DNA of 64,000 nucleotides from an uncultured Prevotellaceae bacterium (GTDB lineage: Bacteria; Bacteroidota; Bacteroidia; Bacteroidales; Bacteroidaceae), in contig CAMVIM010000011.1 in assembly GCA_947167515.1 (NCBI GenBank), forward strand, positions 1-64,000, read 5' to 3'. Positions 38,480 to 62,469 of this stretch are shown piece after piece. A program made the translations under genes and the position numbers. The notes under the pieces were generated by a model. The model had not been told where the DNA came from. It did no database searches and was given only the letters and a program-made list of their open reading frames with translations. Numbering within the stretch: position 1 is the first letter of the stretch; each line of letters opens with the position of its first letter.

Positions 38480-39328
38480 TTAGGTTCTGTGGAAAAGTCT
38501 TTGGAAAAAGTTGGGCCGTTTTTCTGTGAGATGTGCCACCGCCACGGCGATGTTGTCGTGACCGCCTGTGTTGAGTGCCTGTTGGAGGAGTGCCTGACAG
38601 CACTTGTCTGCTTGATGGGCACAGGAACTGGCTGTGTGCAGGATGGCCTCGTCGTCGGCATAGCCACAAAGACCGTCAGTGCATAAGACGAGCGTGCTCT
38701 CTGCTTTGGTGGGCAGGGTGGTCACCTCTGGCTCAGAAGAGCAATCCACGTCGCCGAGGGCACGGGTGATGATGTTGGCATCGGGATGGGTCAGGGCTTC
38801 CTTGGCTGTGATTTGCCCTTTGTCAACAAGCTCCTGTACGTGGGAGTGGTCGTGGGTGACAGCACGCAGACCGTCTTGCGTCGTGTAGATGTAGCATCGG
38901 CTATCGCCACACCAGGCGATGTGGGTATGTTGGGGCTGCACCCATGCGATGACGATGGTGGTGCCCATGCCGACGGTGTGGAAGTCGCTCTGGATGTGTT
39001 GTTCGATGGCTTCGTCGGCTCGCTTGATGGCTTCGCGAAGGAGGTCGGCGCTTGCCTCTTGCGAATGGATGGCCTTTTCAGCGGCTTCGGGTGTGAGGGT
39101 GTTGCCCACGGTTGTGGTGGCTATGGCCGATGCCACCTCGCCTGCATTGAAGCCGCCGATGCCGTCGGCCACCATCAGGACTGCACCGAGCGGGCCAAGA
39201 GAACCATTGGTCTGGATGTTTTCATTCGTCCATCTGGGATGGGCAAGGTCGATGCAGATGGCAAAGGCATCCTCGTTGTTGTCGCGTTCAAGCCCTGGAT
39301 GGGTGGTAGCGGAGATGGCGATGTTCAT
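38480..39328 (-). CDS. PP2C-family protein Ser/Thr phosphatase
   Basis: The 282-residue cytoplasmic protein has all PP2C metal motifs: RDNNEDAF (about 15-22), MVADGIGG (about 52-59), CTDGL (about 217-221) and GGHDNIAVAV (about 256-265). It removes phosphate from Ser/Thr and should oppose the membrane kinase encoded two genes upstream. A PppA-like phosphatase with a PpkA-like kinase and an FHA protein is the known threonine-phosphorylation switch of some proteobacterial T6SSs. Confidence 0.93.
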   Translation of the reverse strand: MNIAISATTHPGLERDNNEDAFAICIDLAHPRWTNENIQTNGSLGPLGAVLMVADGIGGFNAGEVASAIATTTVGNTLTPEAAEKAIHSQEASADLLREAIKRADEAIEQHIQSDFHTVGMGTTIVIAWVQPQHTHIAWCGDSRCYIYTTQDGLRAVTHDHSHVQELVDKGQITAKEALTHPDANIITRALGDVDCSSEPEVTTLPTKAESTLVLCTDGLCGYADDEAILHTASSCAHQADKCCQALLQQALNTGGHDNIAVAVAHLTEKRPNFFQRLFHRT

Positions 39329-45572: not shown

Positions 45573-46070
45573 TTATCTGTTCCGTCGTACGGTAGGCTCT
45601 ACCAGAAACACTACATTTTTGCGATAGGGTCGCATGGTGCCCAGTCCGTCATCGAGGTTTCCTTCCACGATGACGTTCACCTCATACTTTGAGGCGATGC
45701 GGCGTTTTCTCCTTTGTTTCGCCAAGGCCGTGTCCAGTGCGATAGTCACCGTCACGTCCTTCAGCATGGGTTCGTAGGTGGCGAGGCTTAGGCGGATGCT
45801 TTCCTCACATTCCCTTTTCGTCACTTCGTTGTGCAGTCCACCAGCGGCCATCACACCCGTCTGGTTGGCGTTGAACTCGCGGTAGTGCAGGTTGGAGAAT
45901 TCGTGATTCCAGTATTCAAAGCCAAAGTCGGGGTCAGCCTCGAAACTGCCTCGAGGTGTGAACACGATGAGTTCCACCAGATTGTCGAGCATGGCGAAAC
46001 GGTCTTCAATGTTTCGCTGCATCAGTAAGCCCGAGTTGGTGAAGACCAGAGGAGTGTTGATGAATCTCAT
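45573..46070 (-). CDS. tssE: T6SS baseplate wedge protein TssE (gp25-like)
   Basis: The 165-residue protein has the gp25 pattern: RFAMLDNLVELIVFTPRGSFEADPDFGFEYWNHE holds the conserved L-x-T-x-x-G-x-x-x-x-x-P-x-F-G, then an EESIRLSLATYEPMLKDVTV segment (E-x-x-I-x-x-x-I-x-x-x-E-P). It starts sheath assembly. It overlaps tssK by four bases (ATGA). Confidence 0.9.
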   Translation of the reverse strand: MRFINTPLVFTNSGLLMQRNIEDRFAMLDNLVELIVFTPRGSFEADPDFGFEYWNHEFSNLHYREFNANQTGVMAAGGLHNEVTKRECEESIRLSLATYEPMLKDVTVTIALDTALAKQRRKRRIASKYEVNVIVEGNLDDGLGTMRPYRKNVVFLVEPTVRRNR

Positions 46071-47038
46071 ATTTTCTTTCCGAGCCAGCTACGGCGTGGA
46101 TCGGGTTTAGGTTCTGGGGCCGGCTGTGGTGGTGGAGGAACAGGAGCAGCATTGAGCAGGCTGAATTTGTCTATCTTTTCGTCGATGGCACGGCACATGC
46201 CGATACCCTGCTTGATGCGGAGGTAGTTGTTTTGGTAGTTGTAGGGAACCTGCGAGAAATTGAAGAACATGTTAGAATCCTCCAGCGTCAGCACCTCATC
46301 CATCTCGCAGGCCAGTGCGAAGCCGCCCACCACCTTCTGAACACACGCCTGCAGCATGGCAGGAGTCATTGTCTCATGTTCCGTGTTGAGCCGAATGAAC
46401 ACCTGTTGCACGATGGGCCAATAGATGCTGATGGCAGTCTTCACAGGCGATTGTGCCTGCAGTTTTGTTTTCTCTTGGATGCTCTTCAGAATGTCAAGCA
46501 TTTGTATGCGCTGTTGGTCGAAACAGTGGTGAGCTGACAGATAGAGGCAGGGAGGGACAAAACGGTGCGTGTCCTCTTGCCAACCATTCTCTTTTAACAG
46601 ATGTCCTATGGGGACAGCATGAGCTGACAGGGCAGTCTGTGGGGTGATGAGGGCGAAGAAATATTCTGGTTTCAGGAAACCCTCATGGTCTTCTGTCCAT
46701 GCTTCGGGCTGCACGTTGACGGTGAGGAACAGTTCGTTGCCATCCTTTGGGATGGGAAATCTTGTCTCAGGGCTGTCGGAGAATCCATTGCCGATGGTAA
46801 GGTCAACCACCTCGCCTGCCTGTGTGAGGGCAAGCATATCCAGGGTAGTCACCTCCACCTGTTCTGCCGAGATGTTAAGCGACAGTTGGAACGGTCGCAT
46901 CGATGGCAGGAGTCCGAAACGTCCTGCCGATGCCAGCATCAGCGACTGTTTCACGGCTTGGGCAGTGCAGTTGTCGGAGGCAATCAGCACCTCGTCGGTG
47001 AGGCGCATGCCCTTTTTCCAGTTGATTCTTTGGGTCAT
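46067..47038 (-). CDS. tssK: T6SS baseplate-membrane linker TssK
   Basis: The 323-residue protein opens INWKKGMRLTDEVLIASDN, like the W-x-x-G-M-x-L-x-x-x-H/D start of TssK, and has a helical middle and a Pro-rich tail (PVPPPPQPAPEPKPDP). It is shorter than proteobacterial TssK (about 440), as in Bacteroidota forms. It should tie the baseplate to the membrane complex. Confidence 0.8.
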   Translation of the reverse strand: MTQRINWKKGMRLTDEVLIASDNCTAQAVKQSLMLASAGRFGLLPSMRPFQLSLNISAEQVEVTTLDMLALTQAGEVVDLTIGNGFSDSPETRFPIPKDGNELFLTVNVQPEAWTEDHEGFLKPEYFFALITPQTALSAHAVPIGHLLKENGWQEDTHRFVPPCLYLSAHHCFDQQRIQMLDILKSIQEKTKLQAQSPVKTAISIYWPIVQQVFIRLNTEHETMTPAMLQACVQKVVGGFALACEMDEVLTLEDSNMFFNFSQVPYNYQNNYLRIKQGIGMCRAIDEKIDKFSLLNAAPVPPPPQPAPEPKPDPRRSWLGKKI

Positions 47039-47094: not shown

Positions 47095-48003
47095 TCAGAT
47101 ATTTATGTTGTAGTTGAGGTAATGAGGCGTGTTTTCTTCGCCCAGTTGTATAGGGTCTTCTTTGTGTACGATGTCGAAGTGCAGGTTCTCCTTGATGGCC
47201 AAGAAGAAGTCCTTGACAAAGAGTCTGAATTCCTCCATATCGTCAAGGAATTGGTCGAACGTCTTGCTGCATGCGTCATCGTCCCAGTATTGGATGTGAT
47301 AGGTGGTTATGTCCTCGCAGTAGGTGTTGCCTACAAAGCCCTCGTCCAGCGCAAGACCGAGACTGTCATCGTAACGAGGATGCTCGTCTTGCATTGTGCG
47401 AGATTCCGTATGTAGGTGGATGTGCAGCCCCTCTCCGAGGAAAATCTTTCGCAGGATGAAGGTGAGCAAGGTCTTGTTGCCTCGAATCCGTCTGCACTCA
47501 GGCAGGTAGGTCATCATCTGTCGAATGAACCTGTTGCCGCGCTGCTGCGGTGTCAGCGTGTCACCCAGAATCTGCTGCATGATGATGTTCTCCTTGGCAT
47601 AAGCCTCTATTCTCTCTCTCACTTGAGTCTTCAGTTTCAGCAGCAGCAGGTCAAAAGGAGCAAAGAACCTGTAGGCGTTAGCAATCTCCTCAGTCTGTCG
47701 TTCCAGTTCCTCCTCAAACCGTTCCTTCTCCTCCGATTTCGGAATGTTGTCGAAGCGGTCGATGGGGTGGAACATGTACTCTGGCAGCGCATTGTAGAGG
47801 CTGTTGCGGCTGAGGGTGAGGAGTATCTCATGGTTAGGCAGCCCTTCCATCTCCACCACATCGTTGTAGGTGTTGCGTTTGTGTAGACCGCTGAATGCCA
47901 CCTTGCAAGCCCCCTGGGGGTAGTAGGACAGCAGCAGTTCGGCATTGATGTCGGCAGGCAACATCTGTGGCAGCGTTACAGGTTCTTGCATGGCACTACT
48001 CAT
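47095..48003 (-). CDS. tssG: T6SS baseplate protein TssG
   Basis: The 302-residue protein follows a long helical plan (EEKERFEEELERQTEEIANAY and a later QRGNRFIRQMMTYLPECR) and ends with a beta-rich tail, fitting TssG of the T6SSiii class. It is flanked by tssK downstream and the E1 gene upstream, which it overlaps by eight bases, so baseplate and conjugation genes are translated from one message. The call is mostly from position and size. Confidence 0.65.
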   Translation of the reverse strand: MSSAMQEPVTLPQMLPADINAELLLSYYPQGACKVAFSGLHKRNTYNDVVEMEGLPNHEILLTLSRNSLYNALPEYMFHPIDRFDNIPKSEEKERFEEELERQTEEIANAYRFFAPFDLLLLKLKTQVRERIEAYAKENIIMQQILGDTLTPQQRGNRFIRQMMTYLPECRRIRGNKTLLTFILRKIFLGEGLHIHLHTESRTMQDEHPRYDDSLGLALDEGFVGNTYCEDITTYHIQYWDDDACSKTFDQFLDDMEEFRLFVKDFFLAIKENLHFDIVHKEDPIQLGEENTPHYLNYNINI

Positions 48004-49195
48004 ACAGGTTAGCGTCCCCCGTCAGTTCCACATGCCTCATTCCCTTTTCCGTTGTGATTTCCACTACGTCGAAGGTGGGAATGCCAATCTGTTGCAAGGT
48101 GAGGTCTTGGTAGGGGAAGTCTTCGTTGATGTTTTCGTAGAAGTGCTTGTGGAACAATGTACGGTAACTGAGTTTGCGCAGTTCCTCGCTCTTCTTGATG
48201 TATGAGTCGAGTTTCGATTCAGGTAGCATCACCCTGAACTCCTTTTCGGGTCGGTCAGAGATGATGACATCGACAAACTTATTGTTGCGCAGGTTGATTT
48301 CCACTTCTTTCGTTCCAGCTATTTTCTTCAGTTTTTTCAATGCCTCGGCCACCGTCATGGAGGCAGAAAGACCTTCTCCCTTTATTGTGTCATCCCATCT
48401 TTCGTGAGCAGGACAGTTCTTCTTCCATGAGGCAAATCTGTAGATGCTCGTGGTGTTGGTCATGCCTTCATAGCGCCACATCTTTCCCTCCAGCGTCTTG
48501 AACGGGGAGGGTTCGTCCTCGTTCTGATGAATCACCTTCATGGCCTCCTGCACCTGCATAGCTCCGATGATGGAGGCACTGATGGGTGTTGTGGCCACAC
48601 GTCCCTCCTTGCTTTGAGTGCGCACCACGTCGGCGCATCCCGTGCGGAGCATGATATTATTGAATTCTTCACGTGATAGTCCACACTCATAGCAACTGAT
48701 GCCTGGGGCATAGACTCGCACGGCTCCCGTCAGATTTTCAATGCTGCCGTCAATCCATGTCTTGCCAGCCCTCATGCAGAGGCGGTTCAGTTGATAACGG
48801 GCAATGCGGCTGTCGAGGCATCCAATCACTACATCGACCGAGCGGTACAACCCAAAGCCCACCTCGGAAAAGAGATTGCCGACGATGGGGGTGACTTTGA
48901 TTTGCGGATTGATCTCCATGGCGCGTTTCGCCACCACCTCAGCTTTGTAGGAATGGCTATAAGCATCGGCCTCGCGGAACAGCACCGAGCGGGTCAGGTT
49001 TGAAATCTCAATCTGGTCGAAATCCACCACGAAGATGTGCCCGACTCCAAACAGCGCCAAGTTCTTTACAACTTCGTTGCCCAATGCCCCGGCACCAGCC
49101 ACCAGTACACGGGCATTTTTTACCTTTTCTTTCTTGAACCACGAGAGTAGGGTATAGACCCCCTCTCCCCATTCATACGTCAGTTTTGTCTGCAT
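47996..49195 (-). CDS. E1-like ubiquitin-activating (ThiF-fold) enzyme
   Basis: The start at 49195 (MQTKLTYEWGEG) gives 399 residues; a TTG five codons earlier overlaps the previous stop. Residues about 25-265 are an E1/ThiF domain: VLVAGAGALGNEV (ATP P-loop like), VVDFDQIEISNLTR with the catalytic Asp/Arg, DVVIGCLDSRIARYQLN, and CYECG-x(12)-GC, where the last Cys is the candidate thioester residue and CxxC a zinc remnant. Residues 280-399 are an added C-terminal domain ending with LQQIGIPTFDVVEI, similar to the tail of E1 enzymes. It should adenylate the Ubl and pass it to the E2. Not ThiF/MoeB: no thiamine or molybdopterin genes are near. Confidence 0.9.
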   Translation of the reverse strand: MQTKLTYEWGEGVYTLLSWFKKEKVKNARVLVAGAGALGNEVVKNLALFGVGHIFVVDFDQIEISNLTRSVLFREADAYSHSYKAEVVAKRAMEINPQIKVTPIVGNLFSEVGFGLYRSVDVVIGCLDSRIARYQLNRLCMRAGKTWIDGSIENLTGAVRVYAPGISCYECGLSREEFNNIMLRTGCADVVRTQSKEGRVATTPISASIIGAMQVQEAMKVIHQNEDEPSPFKTLEGKMWRYEGMTNTTSIYRFASWKKNCPAHERWDDTIKGEGLSASMTVAEALKKLKKIAGTKEVEINLRNNKFVDVIISDRPEKEFRVMLPESKLDSYIKKSEELRKLSYRTLFHKHFYENINEDFPYQDLTLQQIGIPTFDVVEITTEKGMRHVELTGDANLYE

Positions 49196-49206
49196 AGTTC
49201 CGCTTC

Positions 49207-51591
49207 TCAACTCTCCACATATTCAAAAATCGTGTCGCCCACCTTGAAGGTGTCGCCATTTGTCAGAATCATTGCCTTGCCCACAGGCAGCTCGTTGCGC
49301 ACGTTATAGACTACACCTGGCGCCAGTGGCTTCATCATGGGCAGTGTCTTCATCTTGTCGATGTAGAGCTGCACGTGCTCCTTAGCCACCTTGCTGCTCT
49401 TCTCCCAGTTCATTTGCACCTCACACTCACCTGTCATGCCGATGCTCACCTTATTGCCACCACCTGTGGCGTTCATCCATTTGTGGATGGGGATGCGCTG
49501 TCCAGCCTTGATGCCATTCTTGATGACGAGGAAGTATTTTTCGGCCAGCATGCGCACTGTCACGAGCGATGCACCCAGACCACCTCCATAGATGATGAAA
49601 TCTAGCAGCATATTCATCCAACCATATTTGCCGCCAATGCTGCCGCTGAAATAGAGCACGATGAAACCGATGACAGCCGAACACAGACCACCGATGAAAG
49701 CACTCTTCAGTGGAATGGATGACTTGATGGTCAGACTCAATGCTGTGCAGATGGAGAAGAGAATGTATGCAGGCAGAGAGCAATACCACGGAATGTAGGT
49801 GGTACCTACCGCTGACAGCAGCAGGCAGAAGATGATGCCGCCCACCGCAAAGGCTGCCATGCCAATGATGCCCGTGAGCAACGATAATCCGACTATTTTC
49901 AGATAAATCAGGGCATTCTTGTTGCGGTATTCATCGTTGAAGCGGAACACCAGCGACAGGAAAAATCCGAGTAGTAGACCCACCGTCAGGAAGGCTGAAA
50001 CCTTGCCCGAGCAGTCATCGAAGAAGTTGCCCATCTGCTCCTTGTTCAGGAAGAAAGTCTTGGCAACAGCGTCACCCACAAAGGGAAACAGCCCACGCCC
50101 GGTCAGTTCGAAGATAATCCAGCTGACAAGACCCGCCATGATGCCCGACACCACCTGCATGCTCTCACGCATCGACGCAGGGCTGAACATATCCTTCAGG
50201 TCCACATGCTCCTGAATGCCCTCCTTGCAGTTCTGCCCATATTCCACACATTTGTAACCGTTCTGCTGCCAGCAACCCACATGGATGATGTGCTTGCACT
50301 TCATCACAACCATCTGCCCTGGCTCAATGTTCTGACGGCAGTAGGTGCAGATGCGTCGCTGTACATTCTCTTCAGGTACATACTTTCTATAATACTTAGC
50401 TGCGAAACTCTTAGACTTCACCAGTGGAATCAGCACCTTCATTACGAGGAAGAAGAACATCACCGTGAGCAGGGCGACGAGCACCGCCACCAGGAACTTT
50501 GTCATGGTGTCGCCGGCTGACTCCTCGTGCAGTGGCCAAGGCGTTTCAGCCGTACCGATGGAGTAGTCAGCCGTACCAGTTTCCATACCTTTCCATTCAG
50601 CCGTGTATGCCACACGTCCCGTGTAGGCCTTCCCCTCCGTAGCCTGATAGGTGAAGGCAAAGTCATACATGGCATCCTTCACCACCTGCTCGAAGTTGCT
50701 CAGCACGTTGACGAGGTCAGCCGATGGAATGTAGGAACCCTTGCGCTCCTTCAGCACATGGCCGTTGGCATCGCGTGGGGTGGATACACCTTGCAGCGTC
50801 AGTTCCACATTCTCGTCCATGCCTTCCCCCGTGTAGTAGAAAGCAAACACCTTCGGCACCAAATGGGTAGCGTCAGACTGATAGTCTGTCACCTCCACAA
50901 ATGAGATTGTCTCGTCCGTCGGGCGCATGTTTCCCTCCGTGAAGACGAACAGGATATTCTTCTCCTTCGCCTTTTGGGCACGTGTCACAATGGCGGTGTT
51001 GCGAGCGTAGCCATCCGCCGTGTTCACCTCGCCTTCCAATTCCGCCCCCTTGCTGTTGAACTCTGCTAATTTGGCATAGAGAGCACCATAGAAATACTTG
51101 TTTTCAGCGTGAGCTCTAAACTTAGGCTCAAAACTCTTTAGATTAGCCTTCGTCACTAATTGGCTGGCAGTCACTTCGTCGCCAAAGAAAGAGAGATAGA
51201 CACAACTGTCGGGGGCACTCTCCACCAGCTGGCCAAACGCCTCAAATATTTGTCCCTTGCCCTCTTCGGGAATGCTCAGGTCAACGAGTACCGAGAAGGT
51301 GAAATCCGATGGGATTCTCTGTCCCGAACTGACGAAAGAAATCTTGCGGCGGTCGGGGGCGATGATGCCCTTGTCCTCATAAACTACAAGGTATTTCTCC
51401 AAGTCGTTGGGCGAAAGGTCTTTGCAGGAGTTTCCGTTGCTGTCCAGCACCTTCATAAACAGTGTGATGCTGTCCTTCCCGATGCCATATTCATACTTCT
51501 TGTCGCAGAACTCAATCTTCGACACATCCTGTGCTGCGGCTTGCAGCACCATGACGCACAATGCGCCCATCAGCCATAGTTTCTTTATCAT
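49207..51591 (-). CDS. Polytopic membrane protein with vWA-like, RING-type and FHA-like domains (candidate E3)
   Basis: The 794-residue protein has a signal peptide (1-20), a periplasmic vWA-like domain (about 95-320, FSVLVDLSIPEE with degenerate MIDAS), a membrane helix (365-390), and a cytoplasmic RING-like cluster: C415-x2-C418, C432-x-H434-x2-H437-x2-C440, C448 and C455, eight metal ligands in RING-H2 order but a longer final spacing. Five or six helices follow (about 476-685), then a C-terminal FHA-like domain (about 710-794) lacking the usual Arg at IGR. It is the natural E3 of the set and could fix the pathway at the membrane, near the T6SS. It could instead replace T6SSiii membrane components (TssN-R). 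Confidence 0.8.
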   Translation of the reverse strand: MIKKLWLMGALCVMVLQAAAQDVSKIEFCDKKYEYGIGKDSITLFMKVLDSNGNSCKDLSPNDLEKYLVVYEDKGIIAPDRRKISFVSSGQRIPSDFTFSVLVDLSIPEEGKGQIFEAFGQLVESAPDSCVYLSFFGDEVTASQLVTKANLKSFEPKFRAHAENKYFYGALYAKLAEFNSKGAELEGEVNTADGYARNTAIVTRAQKAKEKNILFVFTEGNMRPTDETISFVEVTDYQSDATHLVPKVFAFYYTGEGMDENVELTLQGVSTPRDANGHVLKERKGSYIPSADLVNVLSNFEQVVKDAMYDFAFTYQATEGKAYTGRVAYTAEWKGMETGTADYSIGTAETPWPLHEESAGDTMTKFLVAVLVALLTVMFFFLVMKVLIPLVKSKSFAAKYYRKYVPEENVQRRICTYCRQNIEPGQMVVMKCKHIIHVGCWQQNGYKCVEYGQNCKEGIQEHVDLKDMFSPASMRESMQVVSGIMAGLVSWIIFELTGRGLFPFVGDAVAKTFFLNKEQMGNFFDDCSGKVSAFLTVGLLLGFFLSLVFRFNDEYRNKNALIYLKIVGLSLLTGIIGMAAFAVGGIIFCLLLSAVGTTYIPWYCSLPAYILFSICTALSLTIKSSIPLKSAFIGGLCSAVIGFIVLYFSGSIGGKYGWMNMLLDFIIYGGGLGASLVTVRMLAEKYFLVIKNGIKAGQRIPIHKWMNATGGGNKVSIGMTGECEVQMNWEKSSKVAKEHVQLYIDKMKTLPMMKPLAPGVVYNVRNELPVGKAMILTNGDTFKVGDTIFEYVES

Positions 51592-51649
51592 TGTTTTTTT
51601 ATGTTATGCGTTTTTTTGTCTCTTCACAATCCCCCCACATGAGGACAGG

Positions 51650-53005
51650 TTAGTTGCTGGAATATTGATAGCTGGCTCCGTCGGAGGATGTTGATACCGT
51701 GGTGGACGAAGAACTATCAGAAGGGGCTTCGGTGTTTTCGTTTAGACTCTTTTGTGCCCATGTGTACCAAGTCTTGAGTGAGTACATTTTTGTCAGTTCA
51801 GCCTTTGAGTTGATGTTTCCATCGCGGCGGAAAGTGAAGATGCCCACATCCTCTTTCGGTGTCAGGGTATCGACCACAATGGCAGTGAGGAAGTTGGGGT
51901 GGGTGGGGTGTTTCAACTGCATCTGTACGTTGAGATCGGAGTTGCTGAAGAAGACAGAAAGACCTGGGTGTGAGTGTACCCAGCACGTGAGATCGTACTG
52001 CATGTTCGTCTCTCTTCTCAACTTTCTCAGTTGTTCCAATACACTGAGCTTGATTTTACCGCCGAAGTTCAGTTCATACTCATTGAAGACTGCATCGTCG
52101 CCAGGCATCACGATATGTTCAAGCGATACATAATACTCGTTACTTTCCGTGTCATGAACCCAGCGTCCCAGTATCATGCAGCCATTTTCCTTAGCATTGT
52201 TAGGATCGGCAAGGTCGCTTGCATACATGTTGTAGAGGTCAATGATACAGGTGTCTTTGATGTAGAGCCTTCTCACGGCCGACTCTTGGCAGAAGTCGAT
52301 AGCATCCACCTTCAGGTAATGAGGACTTTCCATCACGTCCTCCAAACTCTGTTTCTTCAGGATGGTGGCAGTCTTTCGACGTATGATGATGCCAGGGTCT
52401 TTGTTTGTGCTGTCTTGGCGAACGGGTGTTTGATTAGGCTGAGTGGTCCCCCCCTTCTGCTTCTTGCTCAATAGCGAAATCAACACAATGACACAAATCA
52501 GCACCACAACCACGATGATAACTAACGTCCAGTCAATCTTGTCGAAAAAAGACTGTTCCTGTTCCCGGTTCAGTTCGCGTTCCAGCAGATTCAGGTTTGT
52601 TTCACACATGCCCGTTCTGTCGTTAATGATAGCCGTCAGACTATCACGGCAGGCTTTCTCGTTCTCGATTCCCTGTTCTGCATATTGCAGCAGGAAGTCG
52701 TCTATCATGGCATAGGAACTATTCTTATAATATTGCAGAGAGCCTTTCTGACGGTCCAGATAGCCTTGCAGGTCGTGCTCCTTGATATAGGCTTCCCTGT
52801 CTGACCAGTTCTGCAAGCACTTCACATGCTCACTGATTTCTGTATTCAAGGCTTCCATGTTTGCTTCGTTCAGATAAGGCACCGATTCCACATGCTCGCG
52901 GAAGGCATGGATGATGGTGGCATTCTCCACTTCTTTGGCTGACGTTTGAAAACTGATGGCAGACAGGATGCCAGTCAAAAGGATGAGATAAAGTCTTTTT
53001 TTCAT
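51650..53005 (-). CDS. Membrane-anchored JAB/MPN+ (JAMM) isopeptidase
   Basis: The 451-residue protein has a signal sequence (MKKRLYLILLTGILSAISFQ), a periplasmic helical part (to about 155), a membrane helix (158-182), and a cytoplasmic JAB domain (about 245-410). The JAMM motif is complete: E273 in KENGCMILGRW, H344-S-H346-P, S354 and D357 (HxHx7SxxD). It should cut the Ubl from targets or process it. The tail is Ser/Thr-rich. It is next to the RING gene and points its catalytic face to the cytoplasm, like the E1 and E2. Confidence 0.93.
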   Translation of the reverse strand: MKKRLYLILLTGILSAISFQTSAKEVENATIIHAFREHVESVPYLNEANMEALNTEISEHVKCLQNWSDREAYIKEHDLQGYLDRQKGSLQYYKNSSYAMIDDFLLQYAEQGIENEKACRDSLTAIINDRTGMCETNLNLLERELNREQEQSFFDKIDWTLVIIVVVVLICVIVLISLLSKKQKGGTTQPNQTPVRQDSTNKDPGIIIRRKTATILKKQSLEDVMESPHYLKVDAIDFCQESAVRRLYIKDTCIIDLYNMYASDLADPNNAKENGCMILGRWVHDTESNEYYVSLEHIVMPGDDAVFNEYELNFGGKIKLSVLEQLRKLRRETNMQYDLTCWVHSHPGLSVFFSNSDLNVQMQLKHPTHPNFLTAIVVDTLTPKEDVGIFTFRRDGNINSKAELTKMYSLKTWYTWAQKSLNENTEAPSDSSSSTTVSTSSDGASYQYSSN

Positions 53006-53028
53006 TGTATGCTTGAAAAGATGCGTTA

Positions 53029-54579
53029 TTATTTCTTGGATGAATCGCCACGTTTGGCCAATCTCTTGTATTTGGCAGGGATGGCATCGTTGAGAGAGGT
53101 GTGGACCGTGGGTTGCTGAACTGTCGGTTGGGGGACAGGTGCTGGTTGAAGCTGAGGAGTCTGTGGGGTGCCTTGTGTTCTTGGCTTTGGTTTCAATGTG
53201 CGGTAGGCAGGACGTTGAGGTGTGGCGGCTATTTCTGGTTCATCTTTGGATTCGGTTTCACTTTCTATTTTCTGTTCATCTCTTTTGTTCAAGGCACTCA
53301 TTTGTTGTTGCAATTTGGCCTGGGCGTTCTTGGCTTCGTTCATTACTTTCTTCGCCGCGTTCAGCTCGTTCATGCCATTCGCCCCTGCCATTCCAGTCAG
53401 TCCTGATGTACCTCCCATGCTCGCCATGTTGGGCATGCCGTTCACACCTGACATAGAAGCACCTGTTTGCTGTTGAGTCATCTTCAGCATATTCTCCATC
53501 ATGGCTTTTTGCTGTTTTTGAAGCTTGTACTGATTGACCATCTGTATGATTTGCTTGCCTCCCATGAAGGATAAAAGGAGGGCAATCACACCGCCTCCTA
53601 TCCACATCATGTTCTTTTTTTCCTCTTCCGACTGCTGTACTTGGGCGGCAGCAATGGAGTCATTGCGGGCTTGTGCAGCCTGTTCCGCCTGTGCCTGTTG
53701 CGCAGCCTGTGCCTGCTGATTGGCTTTGGCTTCACCTGCCAGTTCTTTTTTCTTGGAGTCGTAGAGGGCCAGGACTTCGCCAATCTGTTTGCCCACCTCA
53801 TCGTCAGTCACCTTGAAGCGCAGTTCGCGCAACATGGAGACTTCGTGGGTGAGGTCTTCGTCGAAAGGATATTCTGTTGCCTCTTCCAACATTGACTTGA
53901 CGCTGTTGATGCGGATGAGCGCTTCGTCGGCAGGCGAAAGACCCTCGTCAACGAGTTCCTCAGAGGTGATGACTTGGTCGCCAATCTGCTGGATGTTCAT
54001 GGCATTGGCTGCATAGACATCACTACCGCCACCTCCGCCATTTCTGCCCCCACCATTCTTGTTGCCGCCACTGCTCTTCTTGGCTTGCTTGCTGTTCAGG
54101 TTGAGGGTGCCGCATGGTGTAAACACTTTGTAGTGCCGCTTGCCTTCGTAACTGGCCAGATAGATGGGGAGTTTAAGCTGTGCCTCCTCGTTCTGTGCCA
54201 CCTTGAACTGTAAGGTGGGGTTGTCGTTGATGAGGAAGTAACCGTCGCGTGAACGGGTGTAGGTGGCATTGGCAGGCACCATGAAGGCACTGGTCTCTAT
54301 ACCCTCAAACTTGATGTCGTTGTAGTTGCCGTTGCGGTCGAAGAACACCACTGCCACCTCATCTAGTTTCTTGTATTTTTTTTGGTGACTCTGTCCCAGT
54401 TTCTTTTGGGCATTCGTGAAACGAACCGTTAGCTGATTGCCTGTATGGGTGATGTTGTAGGAAAGGATGATGCGGTCGCCTGAATCAGAATAGAGCGTGT
54501 CCTTCACCTCTCTGGCTGATGCTGTTACGCATCCCATGAGAATCCAAAGGGCGGCCACAATAGAGTTTCGCTTAGTCAT
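53029..54579 (-). CDS. Envelope protein with signal peptide, one membrane helix and coiled coils
   Basis: With start at 54579 (MTKRNSIVAALW), 516 residues: signal sequence, a beta-rich N-terminal domain (about 25-165), a Gly/Asn linker, helical segment, one membrane helix (about 324-341, MMWIGGGVIALLLSFMGG), then a Met/Gln/Ala-rich and Pro-rich cytoplasmic tail. The N-domain shares the LPIYLASYEGKRHYKVFTP...LNLN pattern with IPIYIAKFKGKKKLLLLEK...LNLE of the next gene, so the two domains are related. I know no family. It likely spans the membrane beside the JAB and RING proteins and may serve as a scaffold. Confidence 0.65.
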   Translation of the reverse strand: MTKRNSIVAALWILMGCVTASAREVKDTLYSDSGDRIILSYNITHTGNQLTVRFTNAQKKLGQSHQKKYKKLDEVAVVFFDRNGNYNDIKFEGIETSAFMVPANATYTRSRDGYFLINDNPTLQFKVAQNEEAQLKLPIYLASYEGKRHYKVFTPCGTLNLNSKQAKKSSGGNKNGGGRNGGGGGSDVYAANAMNIQQIGDQVITSEELVDEGLSPADEALIRINSVKSMLEEATEYPFDEDLTHEVSMLRELRFKVTDDEVGKQIGEVLALYDSKKKELAGEAKANQQAQAAQQAQAEQAAQARNDSIAAAQVQQSEEEKKNMMWIGGGVIALLLSFMGGKQIIQMVNQYKLQKQQKAMMENMLKMTQQQTGASMSGVNGMPNMASMGGTSGLTGMAGANGMNELNAAKKVMNEAKNAQAKLQQQMSALNKRDEQKIESETESKDEPEIAATPQRPAYRTLKPKPRTQGTPQTPQLQPAPVPQPTVQQPTVHTSLNDAIPAKYKRLAKRGDSSKK

Positions 54580-54620
54580 AAAAATCAGTTGATGAGAAAA
54601 GTTTCCAAGCATTTGACCTA

Positions 54621-55688
54621 TTACAGGTTAGATATACGGTTGTATCGTTCCATAATCTTGCTCTTGTACTCGCCACCGCTCTTCCATGCCGAGGCATGCT
54701 TGCTGCACGAAGTGTCGGTACAGCATTTGTAGAGTGCATTCACTTCATTGATAACCTTCGCTTTGGCAGCTTTGCGGTCACTGCTACTGTAGATTTTCTT
54801 GTAGTAGTCATCCATCTTGTGATAGATTTGTTGCAAAGTGAGCGAGCAGTAGCTGCAACTGTGTCCCCCACCGCCACCAGCCGGGCGTCCATGTCGTCCA
54901 CAGTCACGTTCACGGCTGCTCAGGTCAATGGCATCCAACTTGGCTTTCAAGGCAGCGTAGCGGATGTAGCCGCCATCCTCTTCTTTCCAGTTGTGCGAGG
55001 CAATGATTCGGTCAATCTCAGCCTTCGCGTCTTCTATTCTTTTCTCATACGGTGCCTTCTGCTTGGCCAGTGAAGTGCGGTGCTTCGGGTTAGGGCAGAA
55101 AGTCTGGCGTCCAACCTCCTTTTCCAAAGCTTCGTATTTTTCCTCCACCGCCACAAATTCAGCACTGGGCTTCAGTTCGGCCTCAAGGTTGAGTTCTATG
55201 ATTTGCTTCTCCAGCAAGAGCAGTTTCTTCTTGCCTTTGAATTTGGCAATGTAGATGGGAATGCGGCACACGGTCGGTTCTTCATTCGTCACACTCACCT
55301 CTGTGAGCCGCACCTTGTCGGAAGGTCTTGCCAACTGCACCTGCTCCATTGGCTGGTCGCAGGGGTCTATCAATCGATTCTTTCCCTTGCCGCCAAAGGT
55401 TTTGTCATAGACGATGGAGAGGGATTTGGACTGCTTCTTGATGTCCTTCTCCGTATAGGCGCGGTCGAAGACGATGAGTACCTTCGATTCGTCGAGGTTT
55501 TCCAGTTCCACCGTCACTGTACCCGATTCGCCCTCGTCATAGTTGAGGTGGGCGAACAGGTTGCAATAGCCCAGTTCCACCGTTTTCTCGTTGTCATCGC
55601 TGTTCAGGATGACTTTCTTCTGCTCATCGGCCAGGGTCAAAAGGCAGCCCAGACAGAAGGTAAATGTCAATAGGAGAATTTTCTTCAT
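54621..55688 (-). CDS. Exported protein with Cys/His-rich zinc-like clusters
   Basis: The 355-residue protein has a signal peptide (MKKILLLTFTFCLGCLLTLA), a beta-rich N-terminal domain related to that of the 516-residue neighbour, then a helical part with Cys/His sets: C198...H203 (CPNPKH), C263-x2-H266 (CGRH), C278-x2-C281 (CSYC), C322-C323, and C328-x2-H331 (CSKH). They look like metal-binding knuckles. Its placement between E2 and the envelope protein ties it to the Ubl system, but an exported location would put it across the membrane from E1 and E2. Function unknown. Confidence 0.65.
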   Translation of the reverse strand: MKKILLLTFTFCLGCLLTLADEQKKVILNSDDNEKTVELGYCNLFAHLNYDEGESGTVTVELENLDESKVLIVFDRAYTEKDIKKQSKSLSIVYDKTFGGKGKNRLIDPCDQPMEQVQLARPSDKVRLTEVSVTNEEPTVCRIPIYIAKFKGKKKLLLLEKQIIELNLEAELKPSAEFVAVEEKYEALEKEVGRQTFCPNPKHRTSLAKQKAPYEKRIEDAKAEIDRIIASHNWKEEDGGYIRYAALKAKLDAIDLSSRERDCGRHGRPAGGGGGHSCSYCSLTLQQIYHKMDDYYKKIYSSSDRKAAKAKVINEVNALYKCCTDTSCSKHASAWKSGGEYKSKIMERYNRISNL

Positions 55689-55715
55689 GATACTTACGTT
55701 CAGCTTTTTTCGTTC

Positions 55716-56378
55716 TTATATGCTTAGGGAAATCTTGGGTTTGGCGGGCTGGCTGTCGGTAGCGGCTGGAGCAGGAGCTGCTTGGGGTGTCGGTGACTCA
55801 GGCATATCTTGTGTGAATTTCACCCAGCCGTTAGGCTCACCTTCCTCGCGCACCCATTCGGCCACACTCTGGTCTTCGGGATAGGGGTAGGTGTTTTGGG
55901 CATGATACATCTGGTACTTCAGATACCGCTCCACTCTCAGCACGAGGTCTTTGATGGATGCCAGTACGCCCATCTCCTTGATGGTCAGACACACATGTCC
56001 CTTGAAACTGCCTGAATAGCGAATGTTGGGATGCCAGATGTCGGTAATGAATGTGAAGACGGGATTGCCGTCAGCTGAGGGATAGTTGTTAGGGAGCACT
56101 ACGCTCATCTTGTGCAGATAGCCAAAGATGGGCTTGCGTGGCGGTTCTGTCTCTTCCACACCCACAATGGATTTCACGCGATACCAAATCTCGTATTCGG
56201 TGGGAAGTCCCGTGGCATTCTTGCGACGGATAATATAAGAGAGCGAAGGCTTGCGAATGTCGGGGCTGCTGGCTCTGCGCTTGCAGCACACGTTGTCCAA
56301 CTCTTTCCACTCCTGCAACAGGCGCGCATCGCGGCCTGACAGTTCTTGTTGGTCAAATTTATTGATTGCTGGATTCAT
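55716..56378 (-). CDS. E2 ubiquitin-conjugating-like enzyme
   Basis: The 220-residue protein has a UBC fold pattern: a YLHKMSVVLPNNYPSADGNPVF region (YP and PxxxF), HPN at 116-118, and GHVCL with the catalytic Cys130, in the spacing of eukaryotic E2 enzymes (YP...HPN...C). Later helical segments (SIKDLVLRVERYLKY) fit the C-terminal helices; the tail is Pro/Ala-rich. It should take the Ubl from E1 as a thioester. This is closer to the eukaryotic motif than most bacterial E2-like proteins. It is flanked by the Ubl gene. Confidence 0.92.
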   Translation of the reverse strand: MNPAINKFDQQELSGRDARLLQEWKELDNVCCKRRASSPDIRKPSLSYIIRRKNATGLPTEYEIWYRVKSIVGVEETEPPRKPIFGYLHKMSVVLPNNYPSADGNPVFTFITDIWHPNIRYSGSFKGHVCLTIKEMGVLASIKDLVLRVERYLKYQMYHAQNTYPYPEDQSVAEWVREEGEPNGWVKFTQDMPESPTPQAAPAPAATDSQPAKPKISLSI

Positions 56379-56458
56379 CTTGTCTGTTTTTAGGTTTTAG
56401 TTTTGATGTGTGTAAAATGGCTTCTGTTCAAATGGAGCAAACAGAAAGTGGAAGAAAT

Positions 56459-56522
56459 CGTACCCCTCGACTACGCCTTGCCGTACCCCTCGACTACGCC
56501 ACATCGCACTCGAGGGGTACGA
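56459..56522. repeat. GTACCCCTCGACTACGCC direct repeat pair with inverted copy
   Basis: Two direct copies of GTACCCCTCGACTACGCC followed by an inverted ACTCGAGGGGTAC unit can fold into a strong hairpin in the 151-bp spacer between the Ubl and E2 genes. It may lower expression downstream or stabilise the message. Confidence 0.7.
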
Positions 56523-56529
56523 TGTTCGT

Positions 56530-56856
56530 TTAGCCAGCAATGGGGACAGAAATGAGGTGCAAATGATCCATGGGCTGAATGTCGTAGTCGATGAGCGCCA
56601 TCTCGCGTCCCTCCTCGTCCTCGAATTCAAGGATGGCGGGTTCTTCGTCATCCTCCATCAGCTTGCCCAGCAGATACTGGATGGGGTTGCCTCCATTGTC
56701 CATCTTGGGCAGTTCGAACACCTGTACGATGCTGTTGATTTGGTCACGAATCGTCTTGTTCGGGTCGGTCACCTTCACTTCAATCTCGTCGTAAGACGTG
56801 CCGTCTATCGTCAGCAGGACGATAAACTCTTCCTGATAAAATTCTTGGTCTGTCAT
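56530..56856 (-). CDS. Ubiquitin-like modifier (YukD-like beta-grasp), C-terminal Gly
   Basis: The start at 56856 gives about 108 residues (MTDQEFYQEE...); two upstream ATGs overlap the PAAR-like gene. It shows beta-grasp features: strands VLLTIDGTSYDEIEVKV, a helix TIRDQINSIVQVF, an acidic middle, and LIDYDIQPMDHLHLISV as the last strands. It ends SVPIAG with a single Gly at the stop, suitable for adenylation by the E1 without prior cutting. It lies directly after the T6SS PAAR-like gene with a short gap. Confidence 0.85.
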   Translation of the reverse strand: MTDQEFYQEEFIVLLTIDGTSYDEIEVKVTDPNKTIRDQINSIVQVFELPKMDNGGNPIQYLLGKLMEDDEEPAILEFEDEEGREMALIDYDIQPMDHLHLISVPIAG

Positions 56857-56869
56857 AGTTGGTGATATT

Positions 56870-57850
56870 TTATGTGTCATTGCTTGCCTGGTAGGCTTCG
56901 CTTCCATAAACGGTGTATTTGTCGAAGGCGTCGGCTGGAAGTCCCGTGGCTGCCTTGGCTATGTCGGCATTGTCCTCTAGTCCTTCGGGCTGGTCGGAAC
57001 TGAAGAGGGTGCTGATGCCTTTTTTCACTAAGTTCTCACCGGTATCGCTGACGTCGTCGGCCAGCTTTTTGCCTACGGAGCCTGAGGGGTCGCCAAAGAC
57101 GGTGCGGGTGAGTTTCTGCCCTGTGGGGGAATCGACGGCTCGCTGCAGTTTCTGACCGACGCCGCTGCGGTTGAATGCAACGATGCCGTCGTCCATCTTG
57201 TTGAGTACGAAGTTGGCTGGCTTTTTGAAGAGTTTCCCTACCTTGGCGAGTTTCTTGAGGGGAAGCACTCCCAGAGCGGCGTCGGCGTATTTGCCGTTGT
57301 AAACATTGCCAGCTGCCTCGACAAAGCTGAGACCGACTCCCCAGGGGGTGAGTCCTGCCACGGTGGTCAGTCCGTCAAGCCATGCGGGCAGCTCGTAGTT
57401 GACTTCCAAGGGTTTGCATGGGACTGTGACAGGGTTGACGACTCCTTGACCGGAATGGACTATTTGCACGCATCCGAGGTACTGGCAATAGAGGACGCAG
57501 TCTTGCTGGAGGAAGTGCCTGAAGCTGGTGTCGTGTATCACGTTGTTGAACTGTGTCGCCATCCAGTAGCCTGCGGCTAACATTCCTGGACAAGGGGCGG
57601 GGGTGAGGGTGCCCATGGCGGCCATGGTGGCTGCCTGCACTTCGGGATTGTTGATGCTGGTGCACATGCCGAAGGAGGGCACGTGTGTCATGCTGTTGTC
57701 GGCAAGGGTGGCCATCTTGTTGGTGCCAATGGATGGACGTGTGAGGTCGGACACGTTCAGTATGGAGGTCATCAGACCGAATGAGCAGCGCAGGATGGCG
57801 TTCTGCGTGACGTAGGGTATGCCTGTTTGGGTTGTGACGGTTTTCATCAT
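56870..57850 (-). CDS. PAAR-like (DUF4280) spike tip protein with C-terminal extension
   Basis: About 326 residues from the ATG at 57850 (a TTG at 57859 overlaps the vgrG stop). The first 135 residues follow the DUF4280 PAAR-like pattern, with GIPYVTQNAILRCSFG, TLTPAPCPGM and a late VHSGQGVVNPVTV. The rest (about 140-326) is a helical, Lys-rich extension that may be an effector, adaptor or cargo-binding region. It would cap the VgrG spike. Directly next to the Ubl gene it is a possible conjugation target. Confidence 0.82.
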   Translation of the reverse strand: MMKTVTTQTGIPYVTQNAILRCSFGLMTSILNVSDLTRPSIGTNKMATLADNSMTHVPSFGMCTSINNPEVQAATMAAMGTLTPAPCPGMLAAGYWMATQFNNVIHDTSFRHFLQQDCVLYCQYLGCVQIVHSGQGVVNPVTVPCKPLEVNYELPAWLDGLTTVAGLTPWGVGLSFVEAAGNVYNGKYADAALGVLPLKKLAKVGKLFKKPANFVLNKMDDGIVAFNRSGVGQKLQRAVDSPTGQKLTRTVFGDPSGSVGKKLADDVSDTGENLVKKGISTLFSSDQPEGLEDNADIAKAATGLPADAFDKYTVYGSEAYQASNDT

Positions 57851-57855
57851 GGTGT

Positions 57856-60018
57856 TCAATTGAGCTGAACCTGAGAACCTCGTACTTTGACTTCTTTGGT
57901 GCCAGAGATGCTGACACTCTCGGACGTGAACTTGGCCTCGAAGCTGGCTGTTACGTTGACATTGTTGCCTCCAGAGAGGTTGACATTGTTGCGTGAACGG
58001 ACTTTCACGTCGCCGTCGCTCCGGATGGTAAGTTCGGAGTCTGTGGCTGTGATGAAACTTCCTGGTGTTTCAGACATTTCGGAATGTACCTCCACGTTGT
58101 ACTCTTCGGCATTGAGGATGTAGGTGGGGGCTTTCACGCGTCGCCGATCGGTGGTGAGCATGCTCAGACGTTCAGCCTTCACCCGTTGTTCGAAACCAAC
58201 ATAATTGTAGTAGAAGTTCTCCACGTTGAGGAGGAAGGAACCAGTGTCGCCATCGTCGAGGCTATAGCCATCCTTGGGCTTGCCTACGTTGATTTTCATG
58301 TTTCTGCCAGCGTTCATCACGATGTCCCGATCGGCTCTCAACTCGATGTTCCCCTTTGAGTGGAGGCTGATGAGTTTCTTGTCGGTGTCGAAGAGGATGT
58401 CGTAGTTGTGTGTGTTGTTGTCGTAGATTCTGATGCTTCCGCCCGATTCGTTGCCTGACACATCATGTATCTCGATGGTGTGTCCGCTGGCAGTACGGAT
58501 AGCTTTGATGAGGTTTTCGTCGCCGTCGTACCATTTTTCATCGACATTGGAGCGTGGGGTGAAGCGTGTGCCGATGACTTGGGGACGCTCGAAATTGCCT
58601 TCCTCGAAGTTGACAAGGACTTCGCTCCATTTTTCAGGGATAAGGTGTACTCCGCCATTAGGAAATTCGTAAGGCTGGACAACATGTACCCAGGGGGTGG
58701 TGCCGTTCTTGTCACCGTCTGAGAATTTCTTGCGTTGCCAGGGGAAGCGCACTTTCACGCGCCCCCAATGCTTGGGGTCTTCGGTGTCAACCACATCGGC
58801 GATGATGGGATGGTCGCAGACGGGGTAGATGGGGCTGTCATCTTCGTAGGGGGGAAAGGGGTGGGCGGCAGTGATGCCCTTGAAGGAGTTCTTGTATCGT
58901 TCGTCTGCCGTAAAGGTGTGTATGACTTCGGTGATGAGGATTTCGTCTTGCTGCACTTCGCTCTTGGTGCTCGAATCGCTGTTGTTGATGTAGTTGTCCT
59001 TGATGCTGAGTTTTGCACCAATCTTAAGGCGTGAGCAGTAGGTGTGTCCTTCGTAGATGAGCATGTCGGAACGTTGGGAGAGCATTTCTGCCCGTTGGTC
59101 TTCGCAAAAGAGGGGCGGCTCTATCTTTTCCTTTTCGATATCGGAGTCTGACTCCATAGATCCAGCGGTGATTTGCTGGCTTTTGTGTGCATAGTTGTCG
59201 TTGGAGGCTTTGAGGGCGGCATCGCTCAGTGGGTTGCCGCAGTCTTCCTTGTAGTCATCTGTATAGGCATGTGACTTGGTAGAGGTGTTGTATCCCAAAC
59301 CGACTTTGTAGAATGATGGGTGGAAGATGTGGAGGTGCACTCCGTAGTCGGGGATGTCTTTGCTGGGATAGGTGAGCTGAATGCTTTCGGAGTTGTCGAG
59401 CTTGCCGAAATGGAGGGCTGTTCCTGTGCTGAAGAACCATTCACAATGGCGACGAGCCATGCGGCGCAGGAAGTCGTAATGACTCTCGTTGTATTCGGCG
59501 GTGTAGAAGATGGTTTCTTCCTTTTCGGGCTTCACTTCCTGGGTGTCAAGCTCTCCTGCCTCGTAGATGGTTTTCACAATGTTAGCCAGAGGCTCTTCGT
59601 TGAACACTTGGCATGTGGGGTGTCCGGCAAGTGTGGCGTCTTTGGATACTACCTTTACGGCTATGGCTTGCCGACTGTCTGTTCTGTCGGAATTGGTGTG
59701 GGTGATGAATCCTTCAAACTCGATGTCTGCGGTTTTGCCGTCGGTGTTGGCATTGCTGATTTCTTTTTCCATCGGCTCGGTCTGTAGGGTCAGTTTCACT
59801 TCCTGTCCGATGAGGTTTTTGCAGATGGAGAACTGTGGCTCTTTGATGTCCTCGACGGGGTCTTTGAAGAGGGTGAAAGAAAGGCTGACAGGGTGGAGCA
59901 GCCGTTGTTCCATCTGGAAGTTGTCGAGGTGGTAGAGTGCTCCGTCCAGCTTTATCTTGAACTTGTCGGAGTTGGTGCCGCCGATACTGACGGCGATGTT
60001 TTTGACAGAGATGGACAT
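57856..60018 (-). CDS. tssI: T6SS spike protein VgrG/TssI
   Basis: The 720-residue protein has the gp27-like part (about 20-380), an OB fold with VVDTEDPKHWGRVKVRFPW (about 412-430), then a segment of beta repeats ending with VRGSQVQLN, as in VgrG needle proteins. No enzymatic extension is seen. It forms the puncturing spike that carries the PAAR-like tip encoded immediately downstream. Confidence 0.95.
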   Translation of the reverse strand: MSISVKNIAVSIGGTNSDKFKIKLDGALYHLDNFQMEQRLLHPVSLSFTLFKDPVEDIKEPQFSICKNLIGQEVKLTLQTEPMEKEISNANTDGKTADIEFEGFITHTNSDRTDSRQAIAVKVVSKDATLAGHPTCQVFNEEPLANIVKTIYEAGELDTQEVKPEKEETIFYTAEYNESHYDFLRRMARRHCEWFFSTGTALHFGKLDNSESIQLTYPSKDIPDYGVHLHIFHPSFYKVGLGYNTSTKSHAYTDDYKEDCGNPLSDAALKASNDNYAHKSQQITAGSMESDSDIEKEKIEPPLFCEDQRAEMLSQRSDMLIYEGHTYCSRLKIGAKLSIKDNYINNSDSSTKSEVQQDEILITEVIHTFTADERYKNSFKGITAAHPFPPYEDDSPIYPVCDHPIIADVVDTEDPKHWGRVKVRFPWQRKKFSDGDKNGTTPWVHVVQPYEFPNGGVHLIPEKWSEVLVNFEEGNFERPQVIGTRFTPRSNVDEKWYDGDENLIKAIRTASGHTIEIHDVSGNESGGSIRIYDNNTHNYDILFDTDKKLISLHSKGNIELRADRDIVMNAGRNMKINVGKPKDGYSLDDGDTGSFLLNVENFYYNYVGFEQRVKAERLSMLTTDRRRVKAPTYILNAEEYNVEVHSEMSETPGSFITATDSELTIRSDGDVKVRSRNNVNLSGGNNVNVTASFEAKFTSESVSISGTKEVKVRGSQVQLN

Positions 60019-62067: not shown

Positions 62068-62469
62068 TTAATAGATAGTCCACCTGTTGTCGTGGTCGGC
62101 GTTGCCCAGAATGATTTGCTTGGGCGAGAGAGTGAACTCCTCATACTGCAGTGTAGGGTCTGTTGAGTCATAGACCTCCTTGTAGTCCACCATGTAGCCT
62201 TCCTTGAAGTCGAGGTGCTTCATCTCGCCTCCCTGATGGTTGGGATAGGTGATGGTGCCGTCTTTTCTGTCTGATTCGGAGCACATCCATTCGAGCAGGT
62301 CGGTGTTGCCATCGTCGTGTGACTTCACCTTCACGTAGATTTTTCCACCACGAACAGGGCCTGCGGTCTGACCTTCTGGGTCTGTGTCCTGATGCAGTTC
62401 ATATCTTACATAAAGAACTTCTCTTTCTTTCACGCCGTCAGCGTTGAAAGTGGTTACTCTTGCTGCCAT
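62068..62469 (-). CDS. tssD: T6SS tube protein Hcp/TssD
   Basis: The 133-residue protein fits the TssD/Hcp family of Bacteroidota: EVLYVRYELHQDTDPEGQT, GPVRGGKIYVKV, TDLLEWM and a tail with KQIILGNADHDNRW. It forms the ring-stacked inner tube. It follows tssC by 44 bases and precedes the repeat-fused Hcp gene. Confidence 0.92.
   Translation of the reverse strand: MAARVTTFNADGVKEREVLYVRYELHQDTDPEGQTAGPVRGGKIYVKVKSHDDGNTDLLEWMCSESDRKDGTITYPNHQGGEMKHLDFKEGYMVDYKEVYDSTDPTLQYEEFTLSPKQIILGNADHDNRWTIY

Follow-up and report, generated by a model that had tools for sequence, protein, structure and literature searches.

We found a conserved set of genes for the predicted conjugation of a ubiquitin-like protein (Ubl) embedded in a type VI secretion system (T6SS) cluster of an uncultured Prevotellaceae bacterium. 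It is a variant, so far undescribed in this context, of a known type of enzyme cascade. The cluster lies on contig CAMVIM010000011.1 (assembly GCA_947167515.1), in a 64,000-nucleotide stretch that we call the window; all positions are those of the whole stretch. The set, hereafter the module, comprises a Ubl, an E2 conjugating enzyme, a JAMM metalloprotease, a RING protein that is a candidate E3 ligase, an E1 activating enzyme and two probably exported proteins, Peri1 and Peri2. Our favoured reading, held with moderate confidence, is that these genes specify a dedicated, membrane-anchored Ubl pathway controlling the assembly of contractile machines, namely those of a T6SS sub-type with no TssN, TssO or TssR detected. 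That some gut Bacteroidota hold a complete tagging pathway with intact catalytic residues in this cluster points to a role of protein tagging in building or controlling the T6SS.

A sequence-only reading of this DNA had proposed a complete Ubl pathway at this minus-strand place, and the placement held. VgrG and a PAAR-like gene lie upstream, the genes for TssG, TssK, TssE and TssF lie downstream, the Ubl, E2, E1, JAMM and RING genes are where it had put them, and the E1 and TssG genes share 8 bp. Along the minus strand the cluster runs ClpV, TssB, TssC, two copies of TssD, VgrG, a DUF4280 PAAR-like gene, Ubl, E2, Peri1, Peri2, JAMM, RING protein, E1, TssG, TssK, TssE and TssF. The TssB and ClpV genes sit past the window's end (L001). 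To the earlier account our analysis adds two domains of the RING protein, one vWA-like and one FHA-like, as well as Peri1, Peri2 and the failure to detect TssN, TssO and TssR. The module genes are as follows.

56530..56856, minus strand: Ubl, 108 residues, predicted beta-grasp fold, ending in Gly without a tail
55716..56378, minus strand: E2 conjugating enzyme, with H116-P117-N118 and C130
54621..55688, minus strand: Peri1, hydrophobic signal-like N terminus (residues 4-22) and a conserved Cys
53029..54612, minus strand: Peri2, signal-like N terminus and a possible transmembrane segment near residue 340
51650..53005, minus strand: membrane JAMM/JAB metalloprotease, transmembrane segment 161-179 and a signal-like N terminus (by eye)
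49207..51591, minus strand: membrane RING protein (candidate E3), signal-like N terminus, vWA-like domain 88-309, transmembrane segment 366-384, RING-H2 415-455 and an FHA-like C terminus
47996..49210, minus strand: E1, 404 residues with one ThiF domain (ThiF 2.8e-53)

The catalytic and zinc residues of the module are essentially invariant across alignments of 55 to 73 rows, the window sequence among them. Gly is the last residue of the Ubl in all but one of 71 rows (70 of 71), and the coordinates of the window's Ubl agree with those of the sequence-only reading: relatives use the ATG that gives 56530-56856, not the longer mechanical open reading frame. The one exception, the Ubl of L027, reads PIAG followed by GSKK and would require trimming. 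Library searches returned no convincing match for the Ubl; its AlphaFold2 model is a beta-grasp (predicted local distance difference test score 88.9), and Foldseek places Caldiarchaeum ubiquitin at the top of its matches (E 5e-4), level with the UBL domain of USP15. The HPN motif and C130 of the E2, both picked out earlier, are kept in 73 of 73 rows. This protein barely passes the UQ_con cut-off (E 2.6e-6; 27.5 bits against 27) and matches UBE2K in the PDB (E 2.7e-5); a search of the window's own genome with the Pfam family Prok-E2_B gave no match, with the controls silent too. The E1 carries a GxGALGNE motif, likely zinc ligands C173/C176/C266/H269 and a candidate catalytic Cys, C192. Its adenylation motifs and C192 occur in 64 of 65 rows, the remaining row being an 87-residue fragment, and in the PDB the protein matches UBA7 (5e-21).

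E273, H344xH346 and S354xxD357 of the JAMM protein are unchanged in 55 of 55 rows; on its own the protein reaches Prok-JAB only at E 0.003, below the cut-off, and a seven-row profile matches RPN11 at 7e-10. Its JAMM domain is predicted to be cytosolic if the N-terminal signal is used. All eight C3H2C3 ligands of the RING are kept in 68 of 68 rows, with a last spacing of six residues rather than two, and Pfam sees the domain only below threshold (0.007 to 0.009). Six further hydrophobic stretches accompany the transmembrane segment at 366-384. The metal-ion-dependent adhesion site of vWA domains has the motif DxSxS; in the vWA-like domain here the D is found in 68 of 68 rows, the first S in 50 and the second in 13, and the relatives L120, L121 and L128 retain the motif by eye. 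FHA domains canonically carry GR and S/H, and the C terminus matches the FHA fold with the canonical Arg in 3 of 68 rows and the H in 55 of 68 (the T6SS clade). Peri1 and Peri2 share a short likeness (hhalign 96% over 23 columns), and both are probably exported; for Peri2 the N terminus and transmembrane segment were noted by eye, and a hydropathy scan gave none. Together, the invariant residues and the predicted Ubl fold bear out, at the level of sequence, the proposal of a complete pathway, one that would conjugate its Ubl with the RING protein as putative E3.

Using the E2 alignment to scan GTDB contigs brought up 104 stretches with 73 relatives at 72 loci; the scan favours closer relatives because it is based on two peptide patterns. 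Record names include Prevotella/Prevotellaceae, Bacteroidaceae, Muribaculaceae, Barnesiella and Parabacteroides distasonis, among others; the records are mostly metagenome-assembled genomes from rumen and gut, and the named strains among the matches are Xylanibacter muris, Palleniella intestinalis and Barnesiella sp. An22. At the 48 loci of at least 20 kb, Ubl, E2, E1 and RING genes are always present, and the JAMM gene joins them in 42. Rarity of the set beside T6SS genes would have told against the earlier proposal; instead, 47 of these 48 loci hold at least one T6SS gene, and TssC is present in five of the six E2-positive genomes of the order sample described below. T6SS genes are absent from three of all 72 loci: L058 and the short contigs L022 and L079. 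The module of L058, the exception among the long loci, belongs to the T6SS clade; its 20.6 kb stretch has no tss genes, but two FHA-like genes can be made out by eye upstream of the module.

The loci follow two gene orders. Sub-type A runs VgrG-PAAR-Ubl-E2-Peri1-Peri2-JAMM-RING-E1-TssG-TssK, often with variable genes behind PAAR, and sub-type B (for example, L066) runs E1-TssG-TssK, a gene in the TssE position, TssF, Ubl, E2, two exported proteins and RING. In both orders E1 comes just before TssG, and at 52 of 62 loci the two genes lie -47 to +64 bp apart. The JAMM profile found no match in seven of seven genomes with group B proteins (six of order B; L073 of order A). A repeat on four of the seven was again empty, while all eight control handles were positive; these controls amount to seven genomes (G033 and the L046 genome gave identical matches), five of which supplied profile rows, leaving G033/L046 and L062 as the two independent of the profile.

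Sequence distances indicate that the module is inherited jointly with baseplate genes. Within sub-type A, distances of E1, E2, RING and JAMM track those of TssG (Mantel r 0.76 to 0.88; Ubl 0.66), and TssK tracks E2 (0.86) and RING (0.90), whereas VgrG barely tracks the module (E2 0.16, RING -0.03). This contrast favours an association of the module with the structural core of the machine over one with its exchangeable spike.

At the level of the order, E2 and TssC tend to occur together. E2 was positive in 5 of 151 sampled genomes of the window's own family. In an order-level sample of 393 genomes, E2 was found in 6, TssC in 18 and both in 5 (Fisher p 6.6e-7; G000 and G033, both among the six with E2, had also contributed profile rows). 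In a phylum-level sample of 296 genomes, E2 was found in 3 and TssC in 18, shared only by the window's genome. Because few TssC genomes carry E2 in either sample, the module marks a minority T6SS sub-type. A plasmid origin was considered and rejected: the E2 proteins of the window and of genome G608 matched nothing in 72,556 plasmid records (E 1e-3), a search that did not extend to phages.

The module also occurs outside T6SS clusters. Two genomes of one genus in another family of the same class, G608 and G702, lack a TssC match and encode an nSTAND1 ATPase, E1, Ubl, E2, JAMM and a vWA/RING/FHA protein, with an adjoining PAAR gene (L128, L133; L129, L140, L141; the PAAR, nSTAND1 and Ubl identities were tested in G608). 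The G608 Ubl reaches YukD at 1.3e-5, just under the cut-off. On the same contig of G608, 16 kb from the PAAR gene, Pfam identifies genes of an extracellular contractile injection system (eCIS): gp25, base_V, CIS_tube, gp19, sheath and Pvc16. A further genome, G166, carries the module (L120:1548-18543, L137) with no TssC match, and no eCIS search was made elsewhere in it. There the module adjoins SrfB (1e-213) and an SrfC-like gene (1.8e-139), and the Ubl has residues past its Gly, so that trimming would be needed. On the contig that holds this module (L120/L137) there is another JAB-like match, and inspection by eye shows more Ubl-like proteins. Given the eCIS-region copies and one genome without a detected T6SS, the module is not tied to the T6SS alone. 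Perhaps it was a membrane Ubl system that contractile machines took up on two or more occasions, although we infer both the number and the direction; the eCIS neighbourhood in one genus implies that its general role may be the control of contractile injection machines.

Several observations weigh against our favoured reading. Most Bacteroidota T6SSs do without the module: 13 of the 18 TssC genomes in the order sample and 17 of the 18 in the phylum sample have no E2, and a sister T6SS in G013 lacks the module. Conversely, some copies of the module have no T6SS detected with them (G166, L120; L058). Homologues of the G608 eCIS genes lie ~39 kb from the PAAR gene in G702, and the G608 and G702 copies perhaps reflect one event, being from the same genus. 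In sub-type A, TssC tracks E2 weakly (r 0.30) and RING better (0.72). Across all loci VgrG also tracks E2 (0.73) and RING (0.64), which is what the deep split between A and B alone would give; and since neighbouring genes co-vary anyway, such distances show joint inheritance, not interaction. Reading of phosphorylated proteins is doubtful because the FHA-like domain mostly lacks the canonical Arg, and we make no claim for it as a phosphothreonine reader. A strict one-to-one link between module and T6SS is rejected owing to G166, L058, G608/G702 and G013. The sequence-only reading had taken the overlap of E1 with TssG as an argument for a function shared with the T6SS. Systematic linkage and the E1-TssG adjacency (52 of 62 loci) support the link with the T6SS, whereas the restriction to a minority of T6SSs, the eCIS region and the one genome without a detected T6SS qualify it; the common function stays putative.

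Further genes of the cluster are as follows.

62514..63896, minus strand: TssC sheath (PF17541 5.5e-131)
62068..62469, minus strand: Hcp/TssD tube (PF17642 2.7e-31)
60078..61976, minus strand: Hcp/TssD with an N-terminal repeat (TssD 3.5e-32 at residues 499-631)
57856..60018, minus strand: VgrG spike (PF05954 8e-13, PF04717 5e-11)
56870..57859, minus strand: DUF4280 protein (PF14107 1.2e-14), which we take to be a PAAR-like spike tip
47095..48003, minus strand: TssG baseplate (no library match; family hidden Markov model (HMM) matches TssG of a TssN-type cluster)
46067..47038, minus strand: TssK baseplate (TIGR03353 1.4e-6, below cut-off)
45573..46070, minus strand: TssE baseplate, gp25 (GPW_gp25 7.9e-5 and TIGR03357 0.0025, both below cut-off)
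43750..45540, minus strand: TssF baseplate (no convincing library match; family HMM matches the TssF position of a TssN-type cluster)
41145..42635, minus strand: Ser/Thr protein kinase (Pkinase 1.6e-42)
38480..39328, minus strand: PP2C phosphatase (PP2C 1.3e-19)

The cluster thus holds the sheath, tube, spike and baseplate genes of subtype iii (T6SSiii), with TssG and TssF named from gene order and HMM links to a TssN-type cluster, whose own TssG reaches TIGR03347 at 7e-8, below the cut-off. After TssF come genes for a LysM glucosaminidase, the kinase, a weakly matched WG-repeat protein, the phosphatase and a Sel1 protein. The longer TssD begins with an Ala/Glu/Lys-rich repeat of ~490 residues that has an apolipoprotein-like match below the cut-off. 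Elsewhere in the window (22027-26103) lies a lone 1358-residue protein resembling a nonribosomal peptide synthetase, with condensation, AMP-binding, carrier and reductase-like domains.

Bongiovanni et al. (PMC10781749) describe the membrane-complex components of T6SSiii as obligate and as the sole type in the phylum; their survey used two models, one requiring a membrane-complex gene and the other built only from universal T6SS genes, and the published complex has a vWA-like domain in TssR and a Ubl-like domain in TssN. TssN (PF17555) scored above the cut-off in 8 of the 393 order-sample genomes and had no match in any of the six with E2. Among the 18 TssC genomes, five have E2, seven have TssN above the cut-off and none has both, that is, TssN in none of the five E2-positive genomes against 7 of the other 13 (exclusion p 0.054). 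In a chosen set, TssO was found in none of six module genomes and in five of five TssN genomes, and TssR in none of the six and two of the five; the six include G122, which had no T6SS check, and G390, which is 68% complete. The Ubl-type loci thus disagree with the statement that the membrane complex is obligate, unless its proteins are too diverged for the models.

One way to account for this pattern is that the module's membrane proteins (the vWA-RING-TM-FHA protein, where TM is the transmembrane segment, TM-JAMM, Peri1 and Peri2) form a trans-envelope complex replacing TssNQOPR, with Ubl conjugation helping to build it. The failure to detect TssN, TssO and TssR in module genomes speaks for such a replacement, as do the presumed necessity of a membrane complex, the vWA-like and Ubl-like domains of the published one (PMC10781749) and the placement of the module between spike and baseplate genes. 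We nonetheless think it unlikely. Six of the 18 TssC genomes have neither E2 nor TssN above the cut-off (G013, G387, G395, G417, G420 and G477; G387 is 65% complete and the match in G420 fragmentary), and the three inspected, G013 (L115), G395 (L116) and G477 (L118), have T6SS clusters with no module genes in the fetched stretches and no TssN detected. An eCIS region and one genome with no machine detected also harbour the module; the searches covered TssN, TssO and TssR but not TssP or TssQ, and diverged membrane-complex proteins could be missed by the models. Neither the RING protein nor the Ubl resembles TssN by profile, and the idea that either is a disguised TssN was dropped (hhalign probability 3.8% and 0.1%). 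The clusters of G013, G395 and G477 carry kinase genes, with PP2C in two of them, and in G013 an M23 peptidase lies between PAAR and TssG.

The sequence-only reading had listed spike, tube, baseplate and effectors as possible tagging targets. Tagging of the spike or effectors (VgrG, PAAR, Hcp or cargo), for loading or to restrain self-toxicity, would fit the position of the sub-type A Ubl after PAAR or its trailing variable genes, the PAAR gene beside the G608 module and a similar one beside that of G702, and the all-loci VgrG correlation (r 0.64 to 0.73). We consider this distinctly improbable, given that VgrG barely tracks the module within sub-type A (r -0.03, 0.16) and that in sub-type B the Ubl and E2 genes follow TssF rather than spike genes. 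Spike and effectors are thus the less favoured part of that list, with the reservation that VgrG does track the module over all loci. Least probable is that a Bil- or CBASS-like anti-phage module (CBASS being the cyclic oligonucleotide-based antiphage signalling system) landed in the cluster with no common function: defence is the main known setting of bacterial E1-E2-Ubl-JAB sets, and PADLOC E1-E2 models match part of the E1 and JAB models match weakly, but PADLOC has no match for E2, RING, Ubl, Peri1 or Peri2 (E up to 0.1), and the T6SS linkage of the long loci, the E1-TssG adjacency in two gene orders and the co-inheritance with baseplate genes all argue against it.

For the favoured reading, a membrane-anchored Ubl pathway that controls machine assembly, the gene set, its invariant residues, its linkage and its joint inheritance with baseplate genes lead us to propose the following steps. 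E1 would adenylate the C-terminal Gly of the Ubl and hand the Ubl to the E2 Cys. The RING protein, predicted to hold its vWA-like domain outside and its RING and FHA-like domains inside, would bring E2~Ubl to the inner membrane, where the Ubl would be attached to a cytosolic protein of the machine; a baseplate protein (TssG/K/E/F) is the likeliest candidate. Such a tag may govern how the machine docks, assembles or is turned over, and the membrane JAMM protease of sub-type A would take it off. A more far-reaching version, which we hold to be doubtful, is a separate class of contractile machine in Bacteroidota, lacking TssNQOPR, whose baseplate is anchored by a transmembrane Ubl ligase/protease complex (vWA-RING-FHA, JAMM, Peri1/2); through Ubl conjugation this complex would also license assembly or firing, and its enzymatic core would be common to an eCIS and derived from a stand-alone membrane Ubl module.

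These findings would join bacterial Ubl conjugation, best known from phage defence, with contractile injection machines, separate fields in the literature examined. A bacterial E1-E2-RING-JAMM cascade gains a concrete machine as its putative target, and its substrates become testable. Our literature search found no T6SS-linked or eCIS-linked Ubl conjugation pathway, with subscription papers and preprints mostly outside its scope. The loci also speak against TssNQOPR-type membrane complexes as obligate and sole in Bacteroidota, the position taken in PMC10781749.

Comparison with known systems places the module among several relatives. Like the Bacteroidota T6SSiii with TssNQOPR (GA1 to GA3), the cluster has related TssC, TssD, TssK and gene layout; unlike them, it has no detectable TssN, TssO or TssR and carries the Ubl module. 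Bil (BilABCD) likewise combines a Ubl, E1, E2 and JAB/JAMM, and 8tyx, a bacterial Ubl-deubiquitinase complex, ranks 20th among the Foldseek matches of the Ubl model. According to PMC11354881, however, the Ubl of Bil is double and its E1 has two domains, whereas here we find a single 108-residue Ubl and a single-ThiF E1, together with a membrane RING/vWA/FHA protein and a T6SS. As for type II CBASS, no CD-NTase appeared among the cluster genes scanned with Pfam, which left out those for TssB and ClpV.

Burroughs, Iyer and Aravind reportedly predicted in 2011 bacterial operons of RING, YukD-like Ubl, E1, E2 and JAB genes. Their enzyme list is reportedly the same as here; the G608 Ubl lies near the YukD cut-off, and the RING weakly matches Prok-RING_1. 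To our knowledge, no T6SS or eCIS link was drawn for those operons. Bub systems share an E1-type enzyme, and Citrobacter BubCD is a weak PDB match of the E1 (2.3e-7). Bub partners are fused or of the DUF6527 type; Pfam finds none of these among the module proteins, which instead include JAMM and a membrane RING within a T6SS and no BubCD-like fusion. Threonine phosphorylation by PpkA/PppA/Fha controls T6SS, and the cluster has a kinase, a PP2C and an FHA-like domain; here that domain is fused to RING and mostly without the canonical Arg. Finally, the E1/E2/RING/Rpn11 system of Caldiarchaeum subterraneum supplies both the ubiquitin that is the top match of the Ubl and an Rpn11 homologue that the JAMM profile matches at 4e-9; in contrast to that system, the module described here is membrane-anchored, by prediction, and set within a T6SS cluster.

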